From: Acidimicrobiia bacterium
GTDB taxonomy: Bacteria > Actinomycetota > Acidimicrobiia > IMCC26256 > JAMXLJ01
DNA length: 41,163 bases
Direction: 5' to 3'
Assembly: GCA_035651955.1 (NCBI GenBank)
Contig: DASRES010000025.1
Location: 1 to 41,163 of the forward strand
Translations under genes and position numbers: made by a program
The notes under the pieces: model-generated
Seen by the model: the letters and a program-made list of their open reading frames with translations, nothing else
The model's database searches: none
What the model was told of the DNA's origin: nothing
Part shown: piece by piece, positions 2,693-22,520 of the stretch
Numbering within the stretch: the first letter of the stretch is position 1
Layout of the letters: every line of letters begins with the position of its first letter

Positions 2693-2864
2693 CGGCGTTC
2701 CTTTCTCGCAGCTGAGCGAGTCGCTCCGGTCCTGGGCTCGGGCAGCACACCGCGCCGGCCGCGCACCCCTCCGCAGATCCGCAGAGCGGTGCCACGAGCG
2801 CCACACCGGGGCGTAGTTACGAGCGCGGGCCGGATCGGGATTGGCGCCGCGGAACGCCGTTGCG

Positions 2865-3758
2865 TCAGACGACGGTCAGGTCGACGCCACGCTCCTCACG
2901 CGCGCGCAGCCGTACCTGGACCTTCCCGTCCGTCACACGCGTCTCGTACGCGCACTGCGGCGTCACGGCCGGGCCGCGCGCGATCGACCCGTCACCGAGC
3001 CGGAACCGGCTGCCGTGCCACGGACACTGGATGACGTTGCCCTCGACCTTGCCCTCGCCGAGCGGTCCGCCGGCGTGCGAGCACGTCGCCGAGAGCGCGT
3101 ACACGTTCGTCCCGCGGCGCACGAGCACGACGGACGCTCCGTCGACGGTCGCGGTGTGCGGGTGCTCGTCCACGAGCTCGTCCATCGCGACCGCGTCGTG
3201 CCAGTCGCCCGGGTCGAGCGGGCCCTGCTCGACGTCGACACCGGCGCGCATGTTGTAGACGAGGTGGCCGCCGAGGTAGCCGCCCGCGACGACCGCGCCG
3301 AGCGCGAGCGCGCTGAACATCCGTCCGCGCAGCCCGTGACCCTTGCCGCGCGCGCGCCACGACAACAGCTGCAGTGTCAGACCGGTCGCGTTGACGAGCG
3401 CGTGGGTGGTCGCGATCCGCTGCTCGCCACCGTAGGTGTCCTCCCAGTCGGACAGGCCGGCGGCCGCGGTCGGGAGCGCGGCGAGGATCCCGATGCCGAC
3501 GAGACGGCGCGCGGCCTTGCTCGAGTGCCGCCCGCCGAAGACGTCGAGGAACGCCGCGCTCGCCCACGCGCCGATCGGGACGTCCGTGAGGAGCGGGTGC
3601 AGGCGGTGGCCGAGCCATGTGCCCGAGAGCGCGCTCTTCGTCGTGTCCGAGCGCGTGAGGGGCCCCGCGGCCGCCTGCAGCGCCTTGCCCGCCGAGTCGA
3701 GCGCGGGCGTGTTCTCGATCCGGTGCAACGTCTCCCGCAGCGAGTCGGTCACGCTCAC
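2865..3758 (-). CDS. DUF2231 membrane domain fused to a Rieske [2Fe-2S] domain
   Basis: This 297-residue protein has two parts. Residues 40-170 form a DUF2231-type membrane unit of about four helices, with the typical GHRLHPLLTDVPIGAW motif at 50-65. Residues 185-290 form a Rieske ferredoxin domain with both cluster-binding boxes intact: C226-S-H228 and C245-PW-H248. It should carry one [2Fe-2S] cluster tethered to the membrane and act as a one-electron carrier. It is the last gene of the redox operon. Its GTG overlaps the stop of the 31-codon mini-gene (GTGA), and GGGAG lies just upstream inside that gene. I infer that it may accept electrons from the GMC oxidoreductase encoded two genes upstream, replacing the multi-haem cytochrome subunit seen with proteobacterial GMC dehydrogenases. 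The electron acceptor after that is not shown by the sequence. Confidence 0.88.
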   Translation of the reverse strand: MSVTDSLRETLHRIENTPALDSAGKALQAAAGPLTRSDTTKSALSGTWLGHRLHPLLTDVPIGAWASAAFLDVFGGRHSSKAARRLVGIGILAALPTAAAGLSDWEDTYGGEQRIATTHALVNATGLTLQLLSWRARGKGHGLRGRMFSALALGAVVAGGYLGGHLVYNMRAGVDVEQGPLDPGDWHDAVAMDELVDEHPHTATVDGASVVLVRRGTNVYALSATCSHAGGPLGEGKVEGNVIQCPWHGSRFRLGDGSIARGPAVTPQCAYETRVTDGKVQVRLRAREERGVDLTVV

Positions 3759-12927: not shown

Positions 12928-13581
12928 ATGTCGCAGCACTTCGAGATCCCTCGACTGCGTGTTCTCGCCCGCCATGCCCTGCCGCACCTGGTCGAGAGCA
13001 CGATCGTCCCGCTGGTCCTGTTCCTGATCCTCCTGCGCGTGGTCGGCGTGTGGGGCGCGGTGCTCGTCGGCGTCTGCTGGACGTACGGCGCGGTCATCCG
13101 GCGCCTGCTGACCGGCAGCCGGGTCCCCGGGATCCTGATGCTGAGCGCGATCACGATGACGGCGCGCACGGCCGTGTCGTTCGCGACGCACAGCGTCGTC
13201 ATCTACTTCCTGCAGCCGACGCTCGGGCAGGTGCTCATCGCGGGCGCATTCCTGCTGTCGGTCCCGCTGGGCCAGCCGCTCGCCCAGCGCCTCGCCAAGG
13301 ACTTCTGCCCGCTCCCGGCGTGGCTACTCGCCGAGGACCACGTCGGCCGGTTCTTCAAGCGCGTCTCGCTGCTGTGGGCCTTCATCGGCCTCACCAACGC
13401 GGCGATCGCGCTGTGGCTGCTGTTCAGCCAGTCGGTCGGGACGTTCTACGTCGCCAAGACGGGCGCGTCCTGGTTCCTCACCGGCGGGGCGATCGCCCTG
13501 TCCACCTGGTGGTTCCACCGCCTCCTGCACGAGCACGGCCACCGTGCGCCCGAGCCCGCGGCGCTGCCGGTGGCCGGATGA
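12928..13581 (+). CDS. VC0807-like integral membrane protein
   Basis: About 217 residues with five to six membrane segments. It resembles the VC0807 family common in actinobacteria. Recognisable parts are LRVLARHALPHLVESTIVPLVLF, WTYGAVIRRLLTGSRVPGI, YFLQPTLGQVL, the loop AQRLAKDFCPL and FFKRVSLLWAFIGLTNAAIALWLL. The preferred start is ATG 12928, because the family-type sequence begins at MSQHFEIPRLR and AGGAG is close by, although only 2 bases away. An ATG at 12835 would add 31 residues of hydrophilic sequence. The function is unknown. It is followed after 19 bases by an alpha/beta hydrolase on the same strand. Confidence 0.75.
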   Translation: MSQHFEIPRLRVLARHALPHLVESTIVPLVLFLILLRVVGVWGAVLVGVCWTYGAVIRRLLTGSRVPGILMLSAITMTARTAVSFATHSVVIYFLQPTLGQVLIAGAFLLSVPLGQPLAQRLAKDFCPLPAWLLAEDHVGRFFKRVSLLWAFIGLTNAAIALWLLFSQSVGTFYVAKTGASWFLTGGAIALSTWWFHRLLHEHGHRAPEPAALPVAG

Positions 13582-13600: not shown

Positions 13601-14371
13601 ATGAGGCTGCGGACATCCGGCGCCCGGCTCCTGACGTCGGACCGCGTGTCCCTCGCGGGCCGGCGCTGGGAGGCCGAGTCGGCGCGGGCCGCGGTCGTCC
13701 TCGTGCACGGGTTCGCGGCCACCTGCGAGCACCCGCCCGTCGTCGCGGTCGCCGAGGCGCTGCACGAGCACGGCCTGGACGTCATCGCGTACGACGCCCG
13801 CGGGCACGGCCGGTCGGGTGGCTCCTGCACGCTCGGGGACCTCGAGGAGCACGACGTCGCCGCGGCCGTCGAGATCGCCCGGGAGCGGTGCGACCAGGTG
13901 CTCGTCGTGGGTGCGTCGATGGGCGCGATCGCCGCGGTGCGCTACGCCGCGAGCGAGCACGCGGAGAACGGGCTCACCGGCGTGGTCGCGGTGAGCTGCC
14001 CGGCGCGGTGGCGTCTGCCCCGCAATGCGCGGGCGATCCTCGCGGCCGGCCTGACCCGGACCCGGCTCGGCCGGCTCCTCGCCCGCCGGCACCTGCGCGT
14101 GCGGCTGTCGTCGACGTGGGTGACGCCCGAGCCTCCCGTCGAGCTCGTCGAGCACGTCCACGTCCCGATCGCCTTCGTCCACGGCGAGCGCGACCGGTTC
14201 ATCCCGCCCGGCGACGTGTACGAGCTCTTCGCGGCGTCGAACGACGCCCGCCACGTCGAGATGGTCCCCGCCATGGGCCATGCCTACGACGTGGCCGCGG
14301 TACCCGCGATCGTCCGCGCCGTCGACTGGGTGCTCGAGGAGCAGCTCGCGCTGGAGCAGCTGCCCGCGTAG
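13601..14371 (+). CDS. Alpha/beta-hydrolase (serine hydrolase, monoacylglycerol lipase-like)
   Basis: The protein has 256 residues and a standard alpha/beta-hydrolase fold: the oxyanion strand VVLVHGFAATCEH, then YDARGHGRSGGSC, nucleophile elbow VVGASMGAIAAV (Ser in GASMG), acid in FVHGERDRFIPP and histidine in AMGHAYD. All triad members are present, so it is probably active. The ATG at 13601 is the first start where the fold begins and lies 19 bases after the preceding gene. There is no signal peptide, so it is cytoplasmic. An ester or monoacylglycerol substrate is likely from the family but not certain. Confidence 0.85.
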   Translation: MRLRTSGARLLTSDRVSLAGRRWEAESARAAVVLVHGFAATCEHPPVVAVAEALHEHGLDVIAYDARGHGRSGGSCTLGDLEEHDVAAAVEIARERCDQVLVVGASMGAIAAVRYAASEHAENGLTGVVAVSCPARWRLPRNARAILAAGLTRTRLGRLLARRHLRVRLSSTWVTPEPPVELVEHVHVPIAFVHGERDRFIPPGDVYELFAASNDARHVEMVPAMGHAYDVAAVPAIVRAVDWVLEEQLALEQLPA

Positions 14372-14434: not shown

Positions 14435-15259
14435 TCAGCGCTCCCACCACCAGGCGAGGCCCGCGAGCCCCGGGCCGGTGTGGGCGACCATCACGGAGCC
14501 GAACCGCCCGACGAACGACGTCGCCGGTGACTGCTCCGCCTCGACCCGGCCGAGCAGCTCGCGTGCCTCCTCGGGCGCCTGCGCGTGCAGCGCGGCGACG
14601 TGGAGCTTGGCGTCGGGCACGGCGGAGCGACGGAGCAGCGCGACCATGCGGTCCTTGGCGGCGTCGACGCTGAACGCGGGGCGCAGCCGGTGCGGCTTGC
14701 CGTCGCGGAACTCGAACAGCGGCCGGATCCCGAGCCGCCGCCCCGCCCAGCCCGCCACCTCGGGGACGCGGCCGCTACGGACGAGATGGTCGAGGTCCGA
14801 GACCATGGCGACGAGCCGGACGCCCTCGATCGCCTTCGCCGCGGCGCGCTCCACGTCGTCGAGCGTCCCGCCCGCGTCCGCCGCCCGGGCCGCGGCCAGC
14901 ACGACGAGCCCCTGCGCGCCGGCGGCGGTCGACGTGTCGAGGACCGCGACCCGCCCGTCGACCGTCTCCGCGCCCGTCTGCGCGGCGCCGAACGTCGAGC
15001 TCATCGTGGCCGCGATCGTGAGCACGAGCACGCCGTCGTCGGACATGCGGCCCCGAATCGCCTCCGCGAACTCGCCCGGCGTCGGGCCCGACGTCGAGAC
15101 CTCGTCGTAGCGGAGGACCTCCTCGATCGACAGCTCGTCGTCGTGGACGTGACGCTCGCCGAGGTCGAGCCACATCGGGACGACCGTGATGCGGTACTGG
15201 TCGACGAGCTCGGGAGGCAGCGCCGCCGCGCTGTCGGTCACGATCGAGACGGGACTCAC
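14435..15259 (-). CDS. DegV family fatty-acid-binding protein (FakB-like)
   Basis: This 274-residue protein has the DegV pattern: SIVTDSAAALPPELVDQY at the start, the TSGPTPGEFAEAI segment, LTIAATMSSTFGAAQ, the lobe-linking LDTSTAAGAQGLVV, VSDLDHLVRSGRV, and a C-terminal GSVMVAHTGPGLAGLAWW. Characterised members (FakB) bind a fatty acid so that FakA can phosphorylate its carboxylate; the acyl-phosphate is then used by PlsX or PlsY. No FakA-type DAK kinase gene is in this window. The GTG at 15259 overlaps the stop of the upstream PlsY-like gene by four bases. This pairs a fatty-acid carrier with an acyltransferase relative and supports a lipid role. Confidence 0.88.
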   Translation of the reverse strand: MSPVSIVTDSAAALPPELVDQYRITVVPMWLDLGERHVHDDELSIEEVLRYDEVSTSGPTPGEFAEAIRGRMSDDGVLVLTIAATMSSTFGAAQTGAETVDGRVAVLDTSTAAGAQGLVVLAAARAADAGGTLDDVERAAAKAIEGVRLVAMVSDLDHLVRSGRVPEVAGWAGRRLGIRPLFEFRDGKPHRLRPAFSVDAAKDRMVALLRRSAVPDAKLHVAALHAQAPEEARELLGRVEAEQSPATSFVGRFGSVMVAHTGPGLAGLAWWWER

Positions 15260-16038
15260 GCCGAAGGCTCCCTCCGCCCCGCGTGTCCGCCGCCACCGGG
15301 CCGGGGCGGGTCGACCGGGGCGCTCGCAGCACGGTACCCGCCCGCGACGGGGTCACCGGCGCACGGCTGCGTCGTCCCGCCGGCCCCGCCACGGGGGGAC
15401 GACGCCGGCGGCGGTTGCGTCGTCGGCTCCGCGCTCGACTCGGGGCCGTCGTGGTCGAACAGCAGCCGGCGCCCGTACGTGCGCGCGTCCCGGTGCTCGG
15501 GGGGACGGTTGCCCGCGAGCCGCTTGGCGTACATCGGGACGGCGAGCGCGAGACCCGTCCACACCCCGTGAACGCCGTACAGACCGCCGAGCAACGGCGT
15601 GAGCGCGGCCATCGCGAGGAACACCATCAGGCCGGTCTTGCGCAACGTGGTGCCGACGATCAGCGCGACGAGCAGCAGCACCGCGCCCGGCCACCCCAGG
15701 ACGCAGAGCGCGCCGAGCGACGGCGCGAAGCCACGGCCGCCCGCGCCGCGGAGGAACGGCGACCAGTTGTGACCGACGAGGGCCATGCCGCCCGCGACCG
15801 CGGCAAGCTCGGGACGGCCGTGGCCCGCGAGGGCCGGACCGAGCGCGCCCTTCCCGACGTCCAGGATCCCGGCGACCACGAGCGGCCCGGCGCCCGCGAC
15901 CTTGAACAACCCGGTGCCGGACACGGTGCCGGTGCCGTAGTCGCGAAGATCGACACGCTTCGTGCCCCACGCCACGATCGCCGAGAAGGGGATCGCGCCG
16001 GCGAGCAACGCGATCACGAGGACGAGCGCGGCGTTCAT
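15256..16038 (-). CDS. Divergent PlsY-like (acyl-phosphate:glycerol-3-phosphate acyltransferase family) membrane protein
   Basis: This is a 260-residue protein with the membrane topology of PlsY followed by a Pro/Gly/Ser-rich soluble tail of about 75 residues (SSAEPTTQPPPASSPRGG and onward). The PlsY framework is clear: IPFSAIVAWGTKRVDLRDYG, VAGILDVGKGALGP, GGMALVGHNWSPFLRG. However, motif 1, usually GSGNIGATN, reads GTGTVSGTG; the glycine-rich loop, usually KGGKGVAT, reads GAGGRGFAP; and the motif-3 histidine/asparagine segment is replaced by VPMYAKRLAGN. These are residues that bind glycerol-3-phosphate and phosphate in PlsY, so a different substrate or loss of activity is likely. ATG 16038 is preceded by GGAAGGATC. 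It overlaps DegV downstream. Confidence 0.75.
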   Translation of the reverse strand: MNAALVLVIALLAGAIPFSAIVAWGTKRVDLRDYGTGTVSGTGLFKVAGAGPLVVAGILDVGKGALGPALAGHGRPELAAVAGGMALVGHNWSPFLRGAGGRGFAPSLGALCVLGWPGAVLLLVALIVGTTLRKTGLMVFLAMAALTPLLGGLYGVHGVWTGLALAVPMYAKRLAGNRPPEHRDARTYGRRLLFDHDGPESSAEPTTQPPPASSPRGGAGGTTQPCAGDPVAGGYRAASAPVDPPRPGGGGHAGRREPSA

Positions 16039-16105: not shown

Positions 16106-17854
16106 TCACGGGGCTCCGACCATCGCGCGCAGCTCCGACCGGACGGCGTCGCAACGCGCGGATCGCACCGGGCTCGCCAGGCCCGGGTGCTCGGTCGACT
16201 GCCAGACCGGGTTCAGCTGGACCGGCAGGTCGGGGACCTGCCACGCGGCGGCCGCGCCGCGGATCATCGCGCCCGCCGTCGTCCAGCTCGTCTCCGTGCG
16301 CGGCGCGTTGCCCTCGAGGTCCTGGCGCACCATCCGCTCGACGGTCTTGTCGCCGAGCAGGCCGCCGTGGAACGCGGGCACGACGCGCACGCGCACGCTG
16401 CCCAGACCGGCCGGGTCCTCGACGTCCTGCTCGTCCTCGAGCGGCGCGGACACCGCGTCCGCGAGCGGGACGTACGCGAACTGGGTGATCCCCGGCGCGC
16501 TGCACGCGAGCGCGTCGCGCAACGCCGCGCCGTGCTGGTCGACGTCGCGGACGAAAGGCGAGTCGGGTGAGAGCTCCAGTGGCGACAGGCCGGACAGCAG
16601 CTGCGACACGCCGCGCAGACCCCAACCGGTGAGCGTGCCCCAACCGTCGGTGTCCTCGGCCGGGTAGTACACGCGCCCCGGACGGACGAGCGGGCTGAGC
16701 ATCACGAGCGACCGCACGGGCGCGTCGCGGTACGCGAGCACGTACGTCTTCGCGACGAGCGACCCCTCGCTCTCGGCGACGATCGCGACGCGCTCACCCG
16801 TCGCGCGCGAGATCGCGTCGACCTGCTGCGCCATGAGACGGTCGAGCGCGGCGAGCGACTGCTGCGTGTCGTTCGACCCGTACGCGAGAGGCTCGCCGTC
16901 CGCGCCGAGACCGCGGTACGAGAAGCGCCACTCCCGGAAGCCCGGCCCGAGGAAGTCGACCGGCGACCCGTCCCAGTGGCTCGCGAAGCCGCTCACGACG
17001 AGCACCGGGGCACCGTGGCCGGACGGCGCCAGCGCGGCGACCGCCTTCGGCTCGGCGGGCTGGTGCGCGGCGAACCCGATCGCGCTGCCGCCGACGACGA
17101 TCGCGAAGATCGACGCGAGCGCGATGGGCGCGACGGGAACCCACCGCCGCACGCGGCCGAGCCCGGCGCGCTCACCGGGACGCGCGTGCTCGAGGCCGCG
17201 GACGATCGAGGTCCACGCCCATGCGTTGAACAGTCCGGTCGCCGCCGCGGACAAGAGCGCGAGCGGCCACACCGGGCTGAGCGAGATCGCGAGCGAGCCC
17301 AGCGTGAGGACGGCGAACGTCGCGAGCATCCATGCGCTCGTCCGCAGCGGTGGGAGCGCGCGCCACCAACCGACGCGCGCAGCCCCGTGGTGCACGAGCA
17401 CGACCGTCGCGATCGCGGGCGGGATCGACGCGAAGAACAGCCACGAGATCGGGATGATCGCGAGCGCGAACAGGAGCAACGTCCACGGCGCGAGCGCGAC
17501 CAGCGCGACGGCCGTGAAGCCGACGCAGTGCGCGAACGACGTGCGGAACGGTACGGACTCGGCGTCCGGCGGGCGCGCGAGACGGAGCAGCAACGCGTCG
17601 AGCGCGCCGCGGAACGCCAGCAGCGCGGCGAGCTCGAACCCGAGCGTCGACCACGACCGGTGGTACACGAGCAGCCAGCGCAGGTCGTGGAACGCGCCGA
17701 ACGGAGACGGCGCGGTCACCTGCGGCGCGAGCCCCCGCGACGCGTGCGGCCCGACGAGGACGAGGATGCCGCACTCGAGGACCGAGAGCCCGACGGCGAG
17801 GGCGATCAGGCCGCGGTGGCGGAACAGTCCGTCACCGGGGCCAGAGACGCGCAT
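16106..17854 (-). CDS. Membrane protein with C-terminal alpha/beta-hydrolase domain
   Basis: In this 582-residue protein the first 260 residues contain about six membrane helices in a DUF-like hydrophobic domain: LIALAVGLSVLECGILVLV, WTLLLFALAIIPISWLFF, LATFAVLTLGSLAISL, WPLALLSAAATGLFNAWAW and APIALASIFAIVVGGSAIGF are the clearest. Residues from about 280 to the end form a soluble, probably extracytoplasmic domain with hydrolase features: PVLVVSGFASHWDG (oxyanion strand), RFSYRGLGADGEP, VAIVAESEGSLVAKTY (nucleophile Ser in AESEGS) and a candidate histidine in VPAFHGGLLGD. A short GTG frame at 17859-17912, ending 4 bases before the ATG, could be a leader. Substrate and partners are unknown. 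It lies upstream of the PlsY-like gene in the same direction. Confidence 0.78.
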   Translation of the reverse strand: MRVSGPGDGLFRHRGLIALAVGLSVLECGILVLVGPHASRGLAPQVTAPSPFGAFHDLRWLLVYHRSWSTLGFELAALLAFRGALDALLLRLARPPDAESVPFRTSFAHCVGFTAVALVALAPWTLLLFALAIIPISWLFFASIPPAIATVVLVHHGAARVGWWRALPPLRTSAWMLATFAVLTLGSLAISLSPVWPLALLSAAATGLFNAWAWTSIVRGLEHARPGERAGLGRVRRWVPVAPIALASIFAIVVGGSAIGFAAHQPAEPKAVAALAPSGHGAPVLVVSGFASHWDGSPVDFLGPGFREWRFSYRGLGADGEPLAYGSNDTQQSLAALDRLMAQQVDAISRATGERVAIVAESEGSLVAKTYVLAYRDAPVRSLVMLSPLVRPGRVYYPAEDTDGWGTLTGWGLRGVSQLLSGLSPLELSPDSPFVRDVDQHGAALRDALACSAPGITQFAYVPLADAVSAPLEDEQDVEDPAGLGSVRVRVVPAFHGGLLGDKTVERMVRQDLEGNAPRTETSWTTAGAMIRGAAAAWQVPDLPVQLNPVWQSTEHPGLASPVRSARCDAVRSELRAMVGAP

Positions 17855-17942: not shown

Positions 17943-18752
17943 TCAGGACGGGTAGTGCAGCCGTATGGCCGCCTCGGGGCCGGCGATGCGCAACGTCATG
18001 CTCTCCTCGACGTAGAGCTGCACCGAGGTCGCGTCGTGCGACAGGTAGCCGATCGAGAAGTCCTCGCCGCACACGATCTCGAAGTCGCCGCCCCGCTGGC
18101 TGACGACGACCGCGCCGTCGACCGCCGGTGCCCAGACGATCGGGCCCGAGAGGATCAGCCGGATGTGGTCGAGCACCGGGTAGCCCCCGTGGTGCGTCGT
18201 CTCGAGGATCCCGGTGTAGCAGCGCGGCCCGAGCGCGATCGCGAAGGGGCCCTCCACGCCGGCGTCGCGAAGCCGCGCGATCGCGCGCGCCACGGTCCCC
18301 GGATAGTCGTCGTACTCGTCGCTGATCGGGAGCGGCTCGTGCGGCGACGCCTCGACGATCCCCTCGATCCCGCCGGCCGCCCAACCGTGGAACACGGCCT
18401 TGTCCTCCGCGAGCGCGGACCGGCGCGCCGCGTCCGTCACCGCGTCGAGGTCGGGCCCGAGCGCGCCGCGGTCGATCGCGTCGAGCTCGTCACGGCTCAG
18501 CGTGAACGGCGTGCGCAACTCGACGAGGGGCCGGACGAGACGCGCGCGCGCCTCGACGCCCTCTCCCGGCGCGTCGGCCACGCGCTCGACGCGCCCCAGG
18601 CTCGTGGCGGAGTGCTCCCAGCCGTGCGGGCCCGAGAAGTCGATCAGGCGGCGCGCGCTCAGGTAGTGCTTCAGCGCGCGCGACGCCTCCTCGTCGATCG
18701 CGTCCCAGGCCGGATCCGAGATCGGCGCGAGCTCGCGCATCAGGTGGTTCAT
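17943..18752 (-). CDS. Family 1 encapsulin shell protein
   Basis: This 269-residue protein self-assembles into a protein nanocompartment (HK97 fold, linocin/CFP29 family). It begins MNHLMRELAPISDPAWDAID and continues EASRALKHYLSARRLIDFSGPHGW, a near-textbook encapsulin N-terminus whose helix forms the cargo-docking surface on the inside of the shell. Other family landmarks are the E-loop region RPLVELRTPFTLSRDELD, FHGWAAGGIEGI, GPFAIALGPRCYTGI and the C-terminal SFAIGYLS-like segment (EDFSIGYLSHDATSVQLYVEESMTLR in substance). The ATG at 18752 overlaps the stop of the cargo gene (ATGA), so shell and cargo are co-translated. It is expected to store iron with its ferritin-like cargo and lower oxidative damage. 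Confidence 0.95.
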   Translation of the reverse strand: MNHLMRELAPISDPAWDAIDEEASRALKHYLSARRLIDFSGPHGWEHSATSLGRVERVADAPGEGVEARARLVRPLVELRTPFTLSRDELDAIDRGALGPDLDAVTDAARRSALAEDKAVFHGWAAGGIEGIVEASPHEPLPISDEYDDYPGTVARAIARLRDAGVEGPFAIALGPRCYTGILETTHHGGYPVLDHIRLILSGPIVWAPAVDGAVVVSQRGGDFEIVCGEDFSIGYLSHDATSVQLYVEESMTLRIAGPEAAIRLHYPS

Positions 18753-19141
18753 CGCATTGCCTCCTCGCGCAGGCTGCCGATACCGAGGTCGCCGCGGCTC
18801 GACCCGCCCCGTCCGTCGCCGCCGCCGGCGACGCTCTCCGCCTCGGCCTCCCGCTCGACCGCGACGATGTCGCCCTCCGTGAACAGGTACGTGCGCAGCG
18901 CCGCATCGAGCACGGGGTCGCGGCGTCGCCACCACTCGAGACCCATCGCGGCGTGCTCCTTCTCCTCGTCGCGGTTGTGGGCGAGGATTCGCTTCAGCGG
19001 CTCGTCGTCGGTCGCCTTGACGCGCTGGTCGTACCAGTCGACCGCCTGCAGCTCCTCGACGACCGACTGCACCGCACGGTGCTGCTCGATCGTCCGCTGG
19101 TCGAGCCACTCGATCGGCTCGTGGTAGCCCTCGCTGGCCAC
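18749..19141 (-). CDS. Encapsulated ferritin-like cargo protein (EncFtn)
   Basis: This 130-residue protein has a two-helix encapsulated-ferritin domain (residues 1-90), a Gly/Ser/Asp-rich linker (100-117) and the cargo-loading peptide DLGIGSLR (118-125), the consensus tail recognised by family 1 encapsulins. Compared with the Rhodospirillum rubrum EncFtn residues E32, W38, Y39, E62 and H65, this protein has E30, W36, Y37, E60 and H63, all shifted by exactly two. The ferroxidase set that forms at the dimer interface is therefore complete. It should oxidise Fe(II) and deposit it inside the shell. Five extra residues (EEAMR) follow the targeting motif because the frame runs on into the encapsulin start, where the two genes overlap (ATGA). 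Confidence 0.95.
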   Translation of the reverse strand: MASEGYHEPIEWLDQRTIEQHRAVQSVVEELQAVDWYDQRVKATDDEPLKRILAHNRDEEKEHAAMGLEWWRRRDPVLDAALRTYLFTEGDIVAVEREAEAESVAGGGDGRGGSSRGDLGIGSLREEAMR

Positions 19142-21248: not shown

Positions 21249-22520
21249 ATGAAGCGCTTGTGGAACCGGCCCGGGTTCCGTGCGCTGCTGATCGGGCAGA
21301 CGGTCTCGGGCGTCGGCGACTGGCTCGCGACGATCGCGTTGATGGCGCTGGTGCTCGACATCAGCGGCTCGTCCACCGCCGTCGGTGCCGTGCTGGTCCT
21401 CCGGCTTCTCCCGGTGATGGTCGCGGGACCGTTGACGACGCGCGTCGTGAAGCGCTGGCACCGCAAGCGGACGATGATGGCGATGGACGCGTCGCGGGTC
21501 GTCATCGTCGCGCTCATCCCGCTGCTGCACGCGCTGTGGTGGGTCTACGTCTGGGCGTTCGTCCTCGAAGCCGCCGGTCTCGTGTTCCTCCCCGCGCGCG
21601 ACTCGGCGATTCCCGACCTCGCGGGGGACGAGGACCTCGAGCTCGCGAACGGGCTCGCGCTCGCGTCGTCGTACGGGACGATCCCGATCGGCGCCGGGAT
21701 CTTCGGGATCGTGTCGATGTTCCTCGGCAAGGGCCGGACGGGCACGTCCGTCGCGTTCTTCATCGACGCCGCGACGTTCGTCGTGTCGTTCCTCGCCATC
21801 CGCAGCATCAAGCTCCTCGACGAGCGCGACCGCAAGATCGCCCGCGCGGAGGAGCGCGGCGAGCAGGAGGTGTCGTTCGTCGGCGCGTTCAAGCTGCCGC
21901 TCATCCGCCGCTTGATCGTCCCGGCGGGCGTCGCCGCGATCGGCCTCGGCACGCTGTTCTCCACGGGCATCGTCTTCGTACGGAAGGTCATGCACGCCGG
22001 CGATTCCGGGTTCGCGGTCCTCATCCTGCTGTTCGGCATCGGCGCCGCGGCCGGTCTGGTGCTGCTGCGGATCGTCGCACCCGACGCGGTCGCGGCCGTG
22101 CGCTGGGCGGTGCTCGGGCAGGGTGTCGTGATCGCGGGGATGAGTCTCGCCCCCAGCCTCGGCATCGCGTTCGCCGGCGCGTTGCTGTTCGGCGCGGCGA
22201 CGAGCATCACCTTGACGTCCGCGATGAGCGCGTTGCAGGAGCGGCTCGCTGACGACGAGCGCATCATGGCCTTCGCCGCGTTCCACACCGTCATACGCGG
22301 GGGCCTGAGCGTGGCGGCGATCCTCGCCGGTCTCGCGACGGATGCCCTGCACGGCGTGCGCTGGCCCGTCATCGGCCACCTCCCGGGCGCGCGCGTCGTG
22401 CTCCTCGGCGCGGGCCTCATCACGGTCCTCGCGTCCGTCCTCATCAAGACGCAGGCGCCGGGCCCCGCCCAACGCGACGGCACCGCGCGCCGCGACCGCC
22501 CGAGCCACGCCGCCGCCTGA
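21249..22520 (+). CDS. MFS transporter (MFS_3/EntS-like exporter group)
   Basis: A 423-residue membrane protein starting MKRLWNRPGFRALLIGQTVSGVGDWLATIALM, the characteristic opening of the MFS_3 (EntS/macrolide-exporter-like) group. It has TRVVKRWHRKRTMMAMDASR in the loop after helix 2 and FLPARDSAIPDLAGDEDLELANGLALASSY after helix 4, a stretch highly typical of this branch. Related members export siderophores or drugs, but no biosynthetic genes are next to it, so the substrate is open. It ends 6 bases before a perfect-looking palindrome that sits between it and the convergent qcrB. Confidence 0.85.
   Translation: MKRLWNRPGFRALLIGQTVSGVGDWLATIALMALVLDISGSSTAVGAVLVLRLLPVMVAGPLTTRVVKRWHRKRTMMAMDASRVVIVALIPLLHALWWVYVWAFVLEAAGLVFLPARDSAIPDLAGDEDLELANGLALASSYGTIPIGAGIFGIVSMFLGKGRTGTSVAFFIDAATFVVSFLAIRSIKLLDERDRKIARAEERGEQEVSFVGAFKLPLIRRLIVPAGVAAIGLGTLFSTGIVFVRKVMHAGDSGFAVLILLFGIGAAAGLVLLRIVAPDAVAAVRWAVLGQGVVIAGMSLAPSLGIAFAGALLFGAATSITLTSAMSALQERLADDERIMAFAAFHTVIRGGLSVAAILAGLATDALHGVRWPVIGHLPGARVVLLGAGLITVLASVLIKTQAPGPAQRDGTARRDRPSHAAA

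Follow-up and report, generated by a model that had tools for sequence, protein, structure and literature searches.

The window, a stretch of 41,163 nucleotides of an Acidimicrobiia genome (contig DASRES010000025.1), carries two overlapping genes on the minus strand, one for a PlsY-like integral membrane protein and one for a DegV protein resembling FakB. The PlsY-like protein belongs to a variant clade, termed PlsYv here, in which, judged by aligned residues, the acyl-phosphate (donor) half of the active site is intact and the half binding sn-glycerol-3-phosphate (G3P) is altered. The function we propose, at about an even chance, is that of a paralogous membrane acyltransferase which would depend on acyl-phosphate and whose acceptor would no longer be, or not mainly be, G3P; the adjoining DegV would be its dedicated FakB.

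The overlapping gene pair

The PlsY-like gene (15256..16038, minus strand), identified as an open reading frame (ORF) and by Pfam, encodes 260 amino acids (AA). It matches G3P_acyltransf (PF02660) with 64.8 bits at a curated cut-off of 24.1, and the PlsY equivalog model TIGR00023 with 43.2 bits at a cut-off of 137.2. The degV gene (14435..15259, minus strand) starts with GTG, encodes 274 AA and matches the DegV domain PF02645 with 196.1 bits (cut-off 27). As claimed in the first-pass annotation of this DNA, the genes overlap by four bases, the shared stop/start sequence being GTGA (15256..15259, minus strand). Chance or a frame artefact was ruled out, as each ORF matches a curated family and has counterparts in dozens of genomes. 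Likewise, the odd motifs of PlsYv do not represent chance degeneration, since the same motifs recur in a clade of 30.

Active site of PlsYv

Thirty PlsYv sequences were aligned with 26 canonical PlsYs of the same class, and residues are numbered according to PlsY of Aquifex aeolicus (aaPlsY). In aaPlsY, acyl-phosphate is bound by His92, by Thr41 and through the backbone at residues 104-107; the phosphate of G3P is contacted by Ser35, Arg45, Lys104 and Asn180, and its 2-OH by Ser142 and His177 (PMC5700162). One PlsYv, from genome G255, is frameshifted and entered the alignment table in its first frame only, in which the residues past the shift (Ile at 177, gap at 180) are not evidence; its second piece, aligned separately, carries Leu in position 177 and Asn in position 180.

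The donor residues are kept throughout the clade, with His92, Gly102 and Gly103 in 30/30, Gly105 in 29/30, and Thr41 in 26 sequences and Ser in the remaining 4. In the window protein they are found as H90, T42 and G100-G101-R102-G103. The acceptor residues His177, Ser142, Asn37, Asn42, Ser35 and Arg45 are each present in 26/26 canonical PlsYs, whereas His177 occurs in none of the 30 PlsYv (V 11, L 11, I 3, A 2, M 2, T 1), Ser142 in nine, Asn37 in none (Thr in 29, one gap), Asn42 in one, Ser35 in four (T 18, Y 4, N 2, G 1, one gap) and Arg45 in 18, position 45 being occupied by eight residue types. Asn180 is present in 29/30 PlsYv (one gap; 29/29 scorable) and in 23/26 canonical PlsYs, and Ser39 in 29/30 PlsYv. 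Lys104 is Arg in 30/30 PlsYv; it was dropped as a diagnostic change because Arg is also found in 10/26 canonical PlsYs. It follows from these counts that the donor pocket was kept and the G3P pocket was not.

Motif 1 of the window protein (residues 35-43, GTGTVSGTG; 15910..15936, minus strand) carries the changes Ser35 to Thr, Asn37 to Thr, Gly39 to Ser and Asn42 to Gly, and donor Thr41 is kept. Motif 2 (residues 89-106, GHNWSPFLRGAGGRGFAP; 15721..15774, minus strand), of which residues 98-106 read GAGGRGFAP, retains donor His92 and the glycine loop and has Lys104 changed to Arg. Motif 3 (residues 172-197, KRLAGN...RRLLFDHD; 15448..15525, minus strand) has Leu for His177, keeps Asn180 and retains Arg and acidic residues past an insertion; in the clade, this part appears as the new motif YxxRLLFDRD. 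The window residues concerned are Thr36, Thr38, Thr42, Gly43, Lys46, His90, Arg102, Leu174 and Asn177. Its phosphate clamp thus reads Thr/Lys/Arg/Asn in place of Ser35/Arg45/Lys104/Asn180, with only Asn180 identical, and the 2-OH contacts Ser142/His177 are Val/Leu. Four changes which had been tested singly in aaPlsY are all combined in this protein; alone, they left 17% (S35T), 6.3% (R45K), 25% (K104R) and 2.5% (H177L) of the activity, and none of the residues tested could replace His177 (PMC5700162).

Both variant sequences, GTGTVSGTG and GAGGRGFAP, had been reported in the first-pass annotation, and its claim that the known active-site residues are lost holds for the acceptor half and fails for the donor half (His92, Thr41 and the glycines). 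Of the motif-3 His and Asn, both described there as missing, His is indeed lost; the loss of Asn was rejected, as Asn177 lines up with Asn180 of aaPlsY when the alignment makes room for the insertion ahead of RLLFD.

The linked DegV

DegV of Bacillus subtilis is named FakB in PMC13400652. For FakB1 of Staphylococcus aureus, Thr62, Ser95, Ser171 and His270 are given as the network holding the fatty-acid carboxylate (PMC8892158), and Arg173 as required for phosphorylation by FakA (PMC9136124). FakB1 numbers were transferred to the B. subtilis DegV row by motif, a mapping of our own. All five equivalents are present in the window DegV. Among the 26 DegVs linked to PlsYv, Thr62, Ser95 and His270 are each found in 25 and Ser171 in 18 (Gly in 8), while Arg173 is found in 23 and replaced by His in 3. 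Residues 4-272 of the window DegV align with B. subtilis DegV (3fys) over nearly the full length (E 6.8e-24). The FakB1 equivalog NF038249 gives 83.9 bits at a cut-off of 350, this model covering FakB1 and not all FakBs. Given the residues kept for fatty-acid binding and phosphorylation, the linked DegV is predicted to be competent as a FakB.

In the tree, the linked DegVs form their own clade (support 100), apart from the housekeeping DegVs of the class; the clade also takes in three DegVs without an adjoining PlsYv (L163, L164, L165). At L141 (G251, another class) the gene order is PlsYv, DegV, FakA in an operon-like arrangement, and this FakA has all three domains.

Distribution and linkage

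Close relatives of PlsYv (at least 140 bits) were searched in 198 Acidimicrobiia-type genomes and in 396 genomes sampled from other classes of the phylum; the class-wide matches considered extend down to scores of about 119 bits (PlsY) and 160 bits (DegV). PlsYv was found in 25 of the 198 genomes and in three of the 396 (G251, G314, G255); a further one of the 198, G040, has a fragment. Two public contigs, L033 and L036, also carry it. Simple gene calling missed the sequences of L042 and L062 and ran that of L033 into its neighbour, so tblastn or manual trimming was used for these.

A DegV lies within 1.5 kb of PlsYv in 26 of the 30 distinct loci, on the same strand in 24. When the window DegV was used as query, no score fell between 207 and 143 bits, and 26 genomes lay above this interval (at least 200 bits). 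At this threshold, which was set after inspection of the score list, a close DegV relative is present in 25/25 PlsYv genomes and in 1/173 others (G188). In G139, the DegV is present away from PlsYv, with a hydrolase and a VC0807-type gene beside it. Two checks proposed in the first-pass annotation thus came out in its favour, the variant motifs being conserved in a clade and their genes lying next to DegV in nearly all cases.

Two loci appear damaged. In G255 (one contig, 100% complete), PlsYv at L143 (6639-7234) is frameshifted after about 125 codons; genes for a major facilitator superfamily (MFS) protein, a hydrolase, FakA and a DegV are close by on the opposite strand. At L130 (2939-3322, G040), a short ORF begins like PlsYv and continues like DegV, as though both had been fused through a deletion or an assembly error.

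Canonical PlsY and acyl-phosphate supply

The window genome (4.1 Mb, 96% complete) encodes a canonical PlsY on contig C92 (142.9 bits; GSGNPGASN, FKGGKGVAT, RHAGN), as well as PlsX and a Dak2/FakA-type kinase on C9. Its second DegV, on C81, scores higher and is of the housekeeping type. Across the 26 variant-bearing genomes, i.e., the 25 PlsYv genomes and G040, a canonical PlsY (at least 130 bits) was found in 21, in none of them near a DegV according to the coordinate lists. A FakA-type kinase (Dak2) is present in 24/26, with G154 (80% complete) and G109 (92%) as misses, and PlsX in 25/26, missing in G109.

Other PlsY lineages beside DegV

For comparison, 109 distinct PlsY copies were compiled. 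This set is non-random, its members having been picked for similarity to the window protein, origin in the same genomes or proximity to a DegV. Duplicate loci (L034, L035, L037, L095-L098, L131, L135-L140, L147, L148) were removed before counting, as were the L130 fragment and the second piece of the L143 gene; L001 (own canonical PlsY) and aaPlsY were used in the tree only. A copy was regarded as unlinked when the flank retrieved for it, just 1.5 kb long for 25 canonical loci, showed no DegV at a distance of up to 1.5 kb. Among the 42 copies with such a DegV, neither His177 (0/42) nor the full set Ser35-Asn37-Asn42-Arg45-Ser142-His177 (0/42) was found, and among the 67 unlinked copies His177 occurs in 41 and the full set in 37. 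The association is one-way, because His177-less lineages without DegV exist (CHL, F25 and part of the ilvC type).

The ilvC type is named after the gene upstream of PlsY in several loci (L115-L117), which we take to be ilvC. Here, an own DegV follows in 10 of 19 copies, His177 is changed to Phe in 18 (one unscorable), and Asn180 is present in no scored copy. A third type beside DegV comprises five copies, all with Leu for His177, and G188 has one further DegV-linked PlsY with Ser. The window clade, the third type and the ilvC type are separate groups in the IQ-TREE phylogeny. Support is 100 for the first and 98 for the second; the ilvC type falls in a clade of support 100 that also contains the G188 copy, and this lineage is well apart from the other two. 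Parsimony gives three changes of His177 and ten of DegV linkage. We tentatively suggest that PlsY-fold proteins with their own FakB may be a recurrent class of acyltransferases that depend on acyl-phosphate and serve acceptors different from G3P; at least two separate Acidimicrobiia-type PlsY lineages, perhaps three, adjoin DegV and lack His177.

A PlsY paralogue distinct from PlsYv, likewise lacking His177 and also Asn180, adjoins another DegV at L115 (3023-4470), L116 (2896-4331), L117 (3053-4491), L169 and L171-L176. At L118 (about 2786-3592, G123), the DegV beside the ilvC-type PlsY was matched just in separate pieces, as if decayed. L065-L069 (f25 family) encode another PlsY-like paralogue with Met or Ala for His177 and the sequence GHNWSxF; it has no DegV and adjoins a conserved gene whose product is about 310 AA long.

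Structure model and C-terminal tail

An AlphaFold model was built from the window PlsYv and seven relatives, with a predicted local distance difference test score (pLDDT) of 79.5. Comparison with the PDB gave aaPlsY chains as the only matches with E ≤ 0.001 (5/5; TM score by target 0.74-0.77), and the window PlsYv is accordingly modelled with the PlsY fold. Residues 198-207, 223-240 and 247-252 are below pLDDT 50.

The C-terminal tail (15256..15447 including the stop codon, minus strand) is Pro/Gly-rich and of low model confidence. Past the last motif, the window species has 63 residues and its congener 43, against 2-19 for the 26 other scorable rows. As it is long in these two alone among the scored rows, the tail is a genus feature; the long disordered tail described in the first-pass annotation is real and predicted to be disordered, but does not belong to the clade as a whole. 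The G+C content by codon position is 0.78/0.83/0.86 in the tail and 0.74/0.53/0.94 in the PlsYv body, and the tail may have arisen by read-on into a former leader sequence of degV, an origin which fits these data. A functional domain in the tail is unsupported, given the low confidence in the model and the restriction of its length to the genus.

Neighbouring genes

An MFS gene is found within 300 bases of PlsYv on the same strand in 18/30 loci, mostly between PlsYv and DegV. In the window, the member of this family is displaced by 5 kb (21249..22520, plus strand). Compared with LplT/Aas models for a possible LplT-like lysophospholipid transporter, it matches only PRK08633 (fused acyl-ACP-phospholipid O-acyltransferase), weakly, with 25.7 bits; the best model is the general TIGR00900 (98.3 bits, cut-off 319.6). 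An alpha/beta hydrolase gene (Hydrolase_4; 13601..14371, plus strand) is the convergent neighbour of degV and occurs in 16/30 PlsYv loci. A small membrane protein of the DUF3159/VC0807 type (12928..13581, plus strand) occurs in 13/30; its Pfam match is weak in the window, and a homologue passes the NCBIfam VC0807 cut-off. The flanking genes vary between families while PlsYv, DegV and MFS stay grouped.

Directly upstream of PlsYv lies a gene (16106-17854, minus strand) for a protein of 582 AA with a weak Hydrolase_4 match below cut-off (21.5 bits); the congener has a gene of similar size at this position. About 2 kb upstream of PlsYv, an encapsulin gene (Linocin_M18, 306.6 bits) overlaps one for an encapsulated-ferritin-like protein (EncFtn-like, 125.6 bits) at 17943-18752 and 18749-19141 (minus strand), and similar genes were called at the same place in the congener (L041).

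Comparison with known systems

PlsYv shares PF02660, the fold, His92, Thr41, the glycine loop and Asn180 with aaPlsY (5xj5-5xj9). Unlike aaPlsY, it has lost or varies His177, Ser142, Asn37, Asn42, Ser35 and motif 1, and it carries an insertion and YxxRLLFDRD. The window DegV resembles B. subtilis DegV (3fys) and S. aureus FakB1 in its alignment, its carboxylate network and Arg173. It differs in belonging to its own clade, apart from the housekeeping DegVs of the class, in the adjoining PlsY-like gene and in a score below the FakB1 equivalog cut-off. The best NCBIfam match of the window PlsYv is NF010993 (63.6 bits, far under the cut-off of 249), i.e., the PRK14417-type 'membrane protein', which includes Chloroflexota sequences (L038-L040). 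The pattern GHNWSPF, KRxxxN, RLLWDRD is common to both, whereas in PRK14417-type proteins motif 1 still resembles the canonical one (GSGNxGAxN), and a DegV is absent from the surrounding 5 kb or so. The PlsX/FakAB-PlsY pathway of Gram-positives is represented in the window genome by PlsX, the FakA-type kinase, the housekeeping-type DegV and the canonical PlsY; the DegV-PlsYv pair is an additional set beside it.

Variant PlsY sequences of this kind are already in databases, since PMC5700162 lists such rare substitutions among 7,288 PlsY homologues (e.g., His177 to Phe 1.0%, Ser35 to Thr 0.9%). In the open-access literature, no paper on a DegV-linked PlsY paralogue was found by title or beginning of the abstract. 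The fold and both families are known. The apparent novelty lies in the combination of a conserved PlsY clade, its donor site intact and its acceptor site altered, with a FakB of its own, and in the recurrence of this arrangement in other PlsY lineages.

Proposed function and alternative explanations

Acyl-phosphate is the donor with which PlsY initiates phospholipid synthesis. In the proposed mechanism, the linked DegV would take up a fatty acid, which would be phosphorylated in its bound state by FakA, encoded elsewhere in the window genome. The acyl-phosphate would be channelled into the retained phosphate hole of PlsYv, which would pass the acyl group to an acceptor not bound through the 2-OH of G3P. 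An acceptor fitting the remaining clamp might have an anionic group and a different C2, e.g., dihydroxyacetone phosphate, another phosphorylated polyol or a lysolipid. Together with the MFS and alpha/beta hydrolase neighbours, the pair may constitute a module for lipid salvage or movement which would free, activate, re-attach and move fatty acids or lysolipids. The first-pass annotation had offered either a different acceptor or a fatty-acid-handling partnership with DegV. This is partly supported and fits best, given the intact donor site, the G3P site altered across the clade and the linked, co-occurring DegV; a loss of the whole site, from which it had started, does not apply.

Several observations weigh against a changed acceptor. 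Asn180 (29/29 scorable), Arg104 and often Arg45 (18/30) could still hold a phosphate, and judging from these residues PlsYv could have a weak or glycerol-1-phosphate (G1P)-type glycerophosphate activity. A canonical PlsY, which the first-pass annotation had expected elsewhere in the genome, is present in the window genome and in most others, as described; in five of the 26 none was found at the threshold, namely in G028 (99% complete), G191 (64%), G150 (85%), G035 (100%) and G193 (95%). In the latter two, PlsYv is the sole PF02660 match and PlsX is present, which for G035 leaves room for a glycerophosphate role. The absence of a second PlsY, named in the first-pass annotation as one part of what would speak against its reading, is thus seen in these five. 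A PlsB-type G3P acyltransferase (PF19277) was tried as a stand-in and rejected, being found in one of 20 genomes, neither G035 nor G193. In G023 and G083, of the same family as G035, PlsX is present and no PF02660 protein was found, so PlsY may be dispensable in this family. Since the class includes genomes that have PlsX but neither a recognised PlsY nor PlsB anyway, G035 fits a replaced and a missing function alike. Finally, four of the 30 PlsYv loci have no DegV nearby (L036 and L061 with none in the flank, L142 where the contig ends, and L143 with one about 4 kb off on the other strand), and some other His177-less PlsYs adjoin none either, so the loss of His177 is not due to DegV alone.

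Genomes in which PlsX was found and neither a PF02660 PlsY nor a PF19277 PlsB was found are G023, G083, G014, G047, G055, G059, G004 and G016.

The possible phosphate clamp and the state of G035 and G193 would also suit a diverged yet functional glycerophosphate acyltransferase, using G3P or G1P with relaxed 2-OH contacts and differing in regulation or in its supply by an own FakB; PlsY of Escherichia coli and B. subtilis accepts both substrates (PMC13400652). This explanation deserves serious attention but is unlikely, as His177, which none of the residues tested could replace in aaPlsY, is missing in all 30, as the window protein combines four substitutions each of which lowers aaPlsY activity to 2.5-25% (PMC5700162), and as 21/26 genomes also have a canonical PlsY.

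A strict donor pocket next to a partly drifting acceptor pocket (T, S, Y, N or G at position 35; eight types at position 45), together with the gene linkage, could also be expected of a non-catalytic acyl-phosphate binder serving as membrane dock for the linked FakB or as buffer or sensor. Such a role is improbable, since the new conservation in the old acceptor region (Thr37, Ser39 and Asn180 in 29/30, Arg104 in 30/30) and the new C-terminal motif seem to exceed what mere binding would need. Lost acceptor contacts with an intact donor site would likewise agree with a hydrolase using water as acceptor, by which acyl-phosphate would be returned to phosphate and the free fatty acid; however, a catalytic water site is not identifiable and the reaction would be futile beside a fatty-acid kinase carrier unless regulatory, making this very unlikely.

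Ordinary decay of a redundant PlsY duplicate, beside DegV by chance, would account for the canonical PlsY in most genomes, the frameshift at L143 and the fragment at L130, but is highly improbable for a deep clade of 30 with new conserved motifs, retained linkage and 25/25 co-occurrence with DegV. Hardly credible is mere gene-order conservation in a lipid or housekeeping region without a functional tie, to which the hydrolase and VC0807-type neighbours and the MFS gene inserted or moved in some species might point: the flanks differ by family while PlsYv, DegV and MFS remain together, G139 has both PlsYv and DegV though at separate places, and two other PlsY lineages adjoin other DegVs.

A coupled FakA/FakB-PlsY assay has been published (PMC13400652). 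If PlsYv is an acyltransferase with a changed acceptor and its own FakB, the acyl-phosphate pool of these bacteria would have a second membrane outlet, served by a carrier protein of its own, beside the initiation of phospholipid synthesis, and genes annotated in them as 'glycerol-3-phosphate acyltransferase' would make another lipid.

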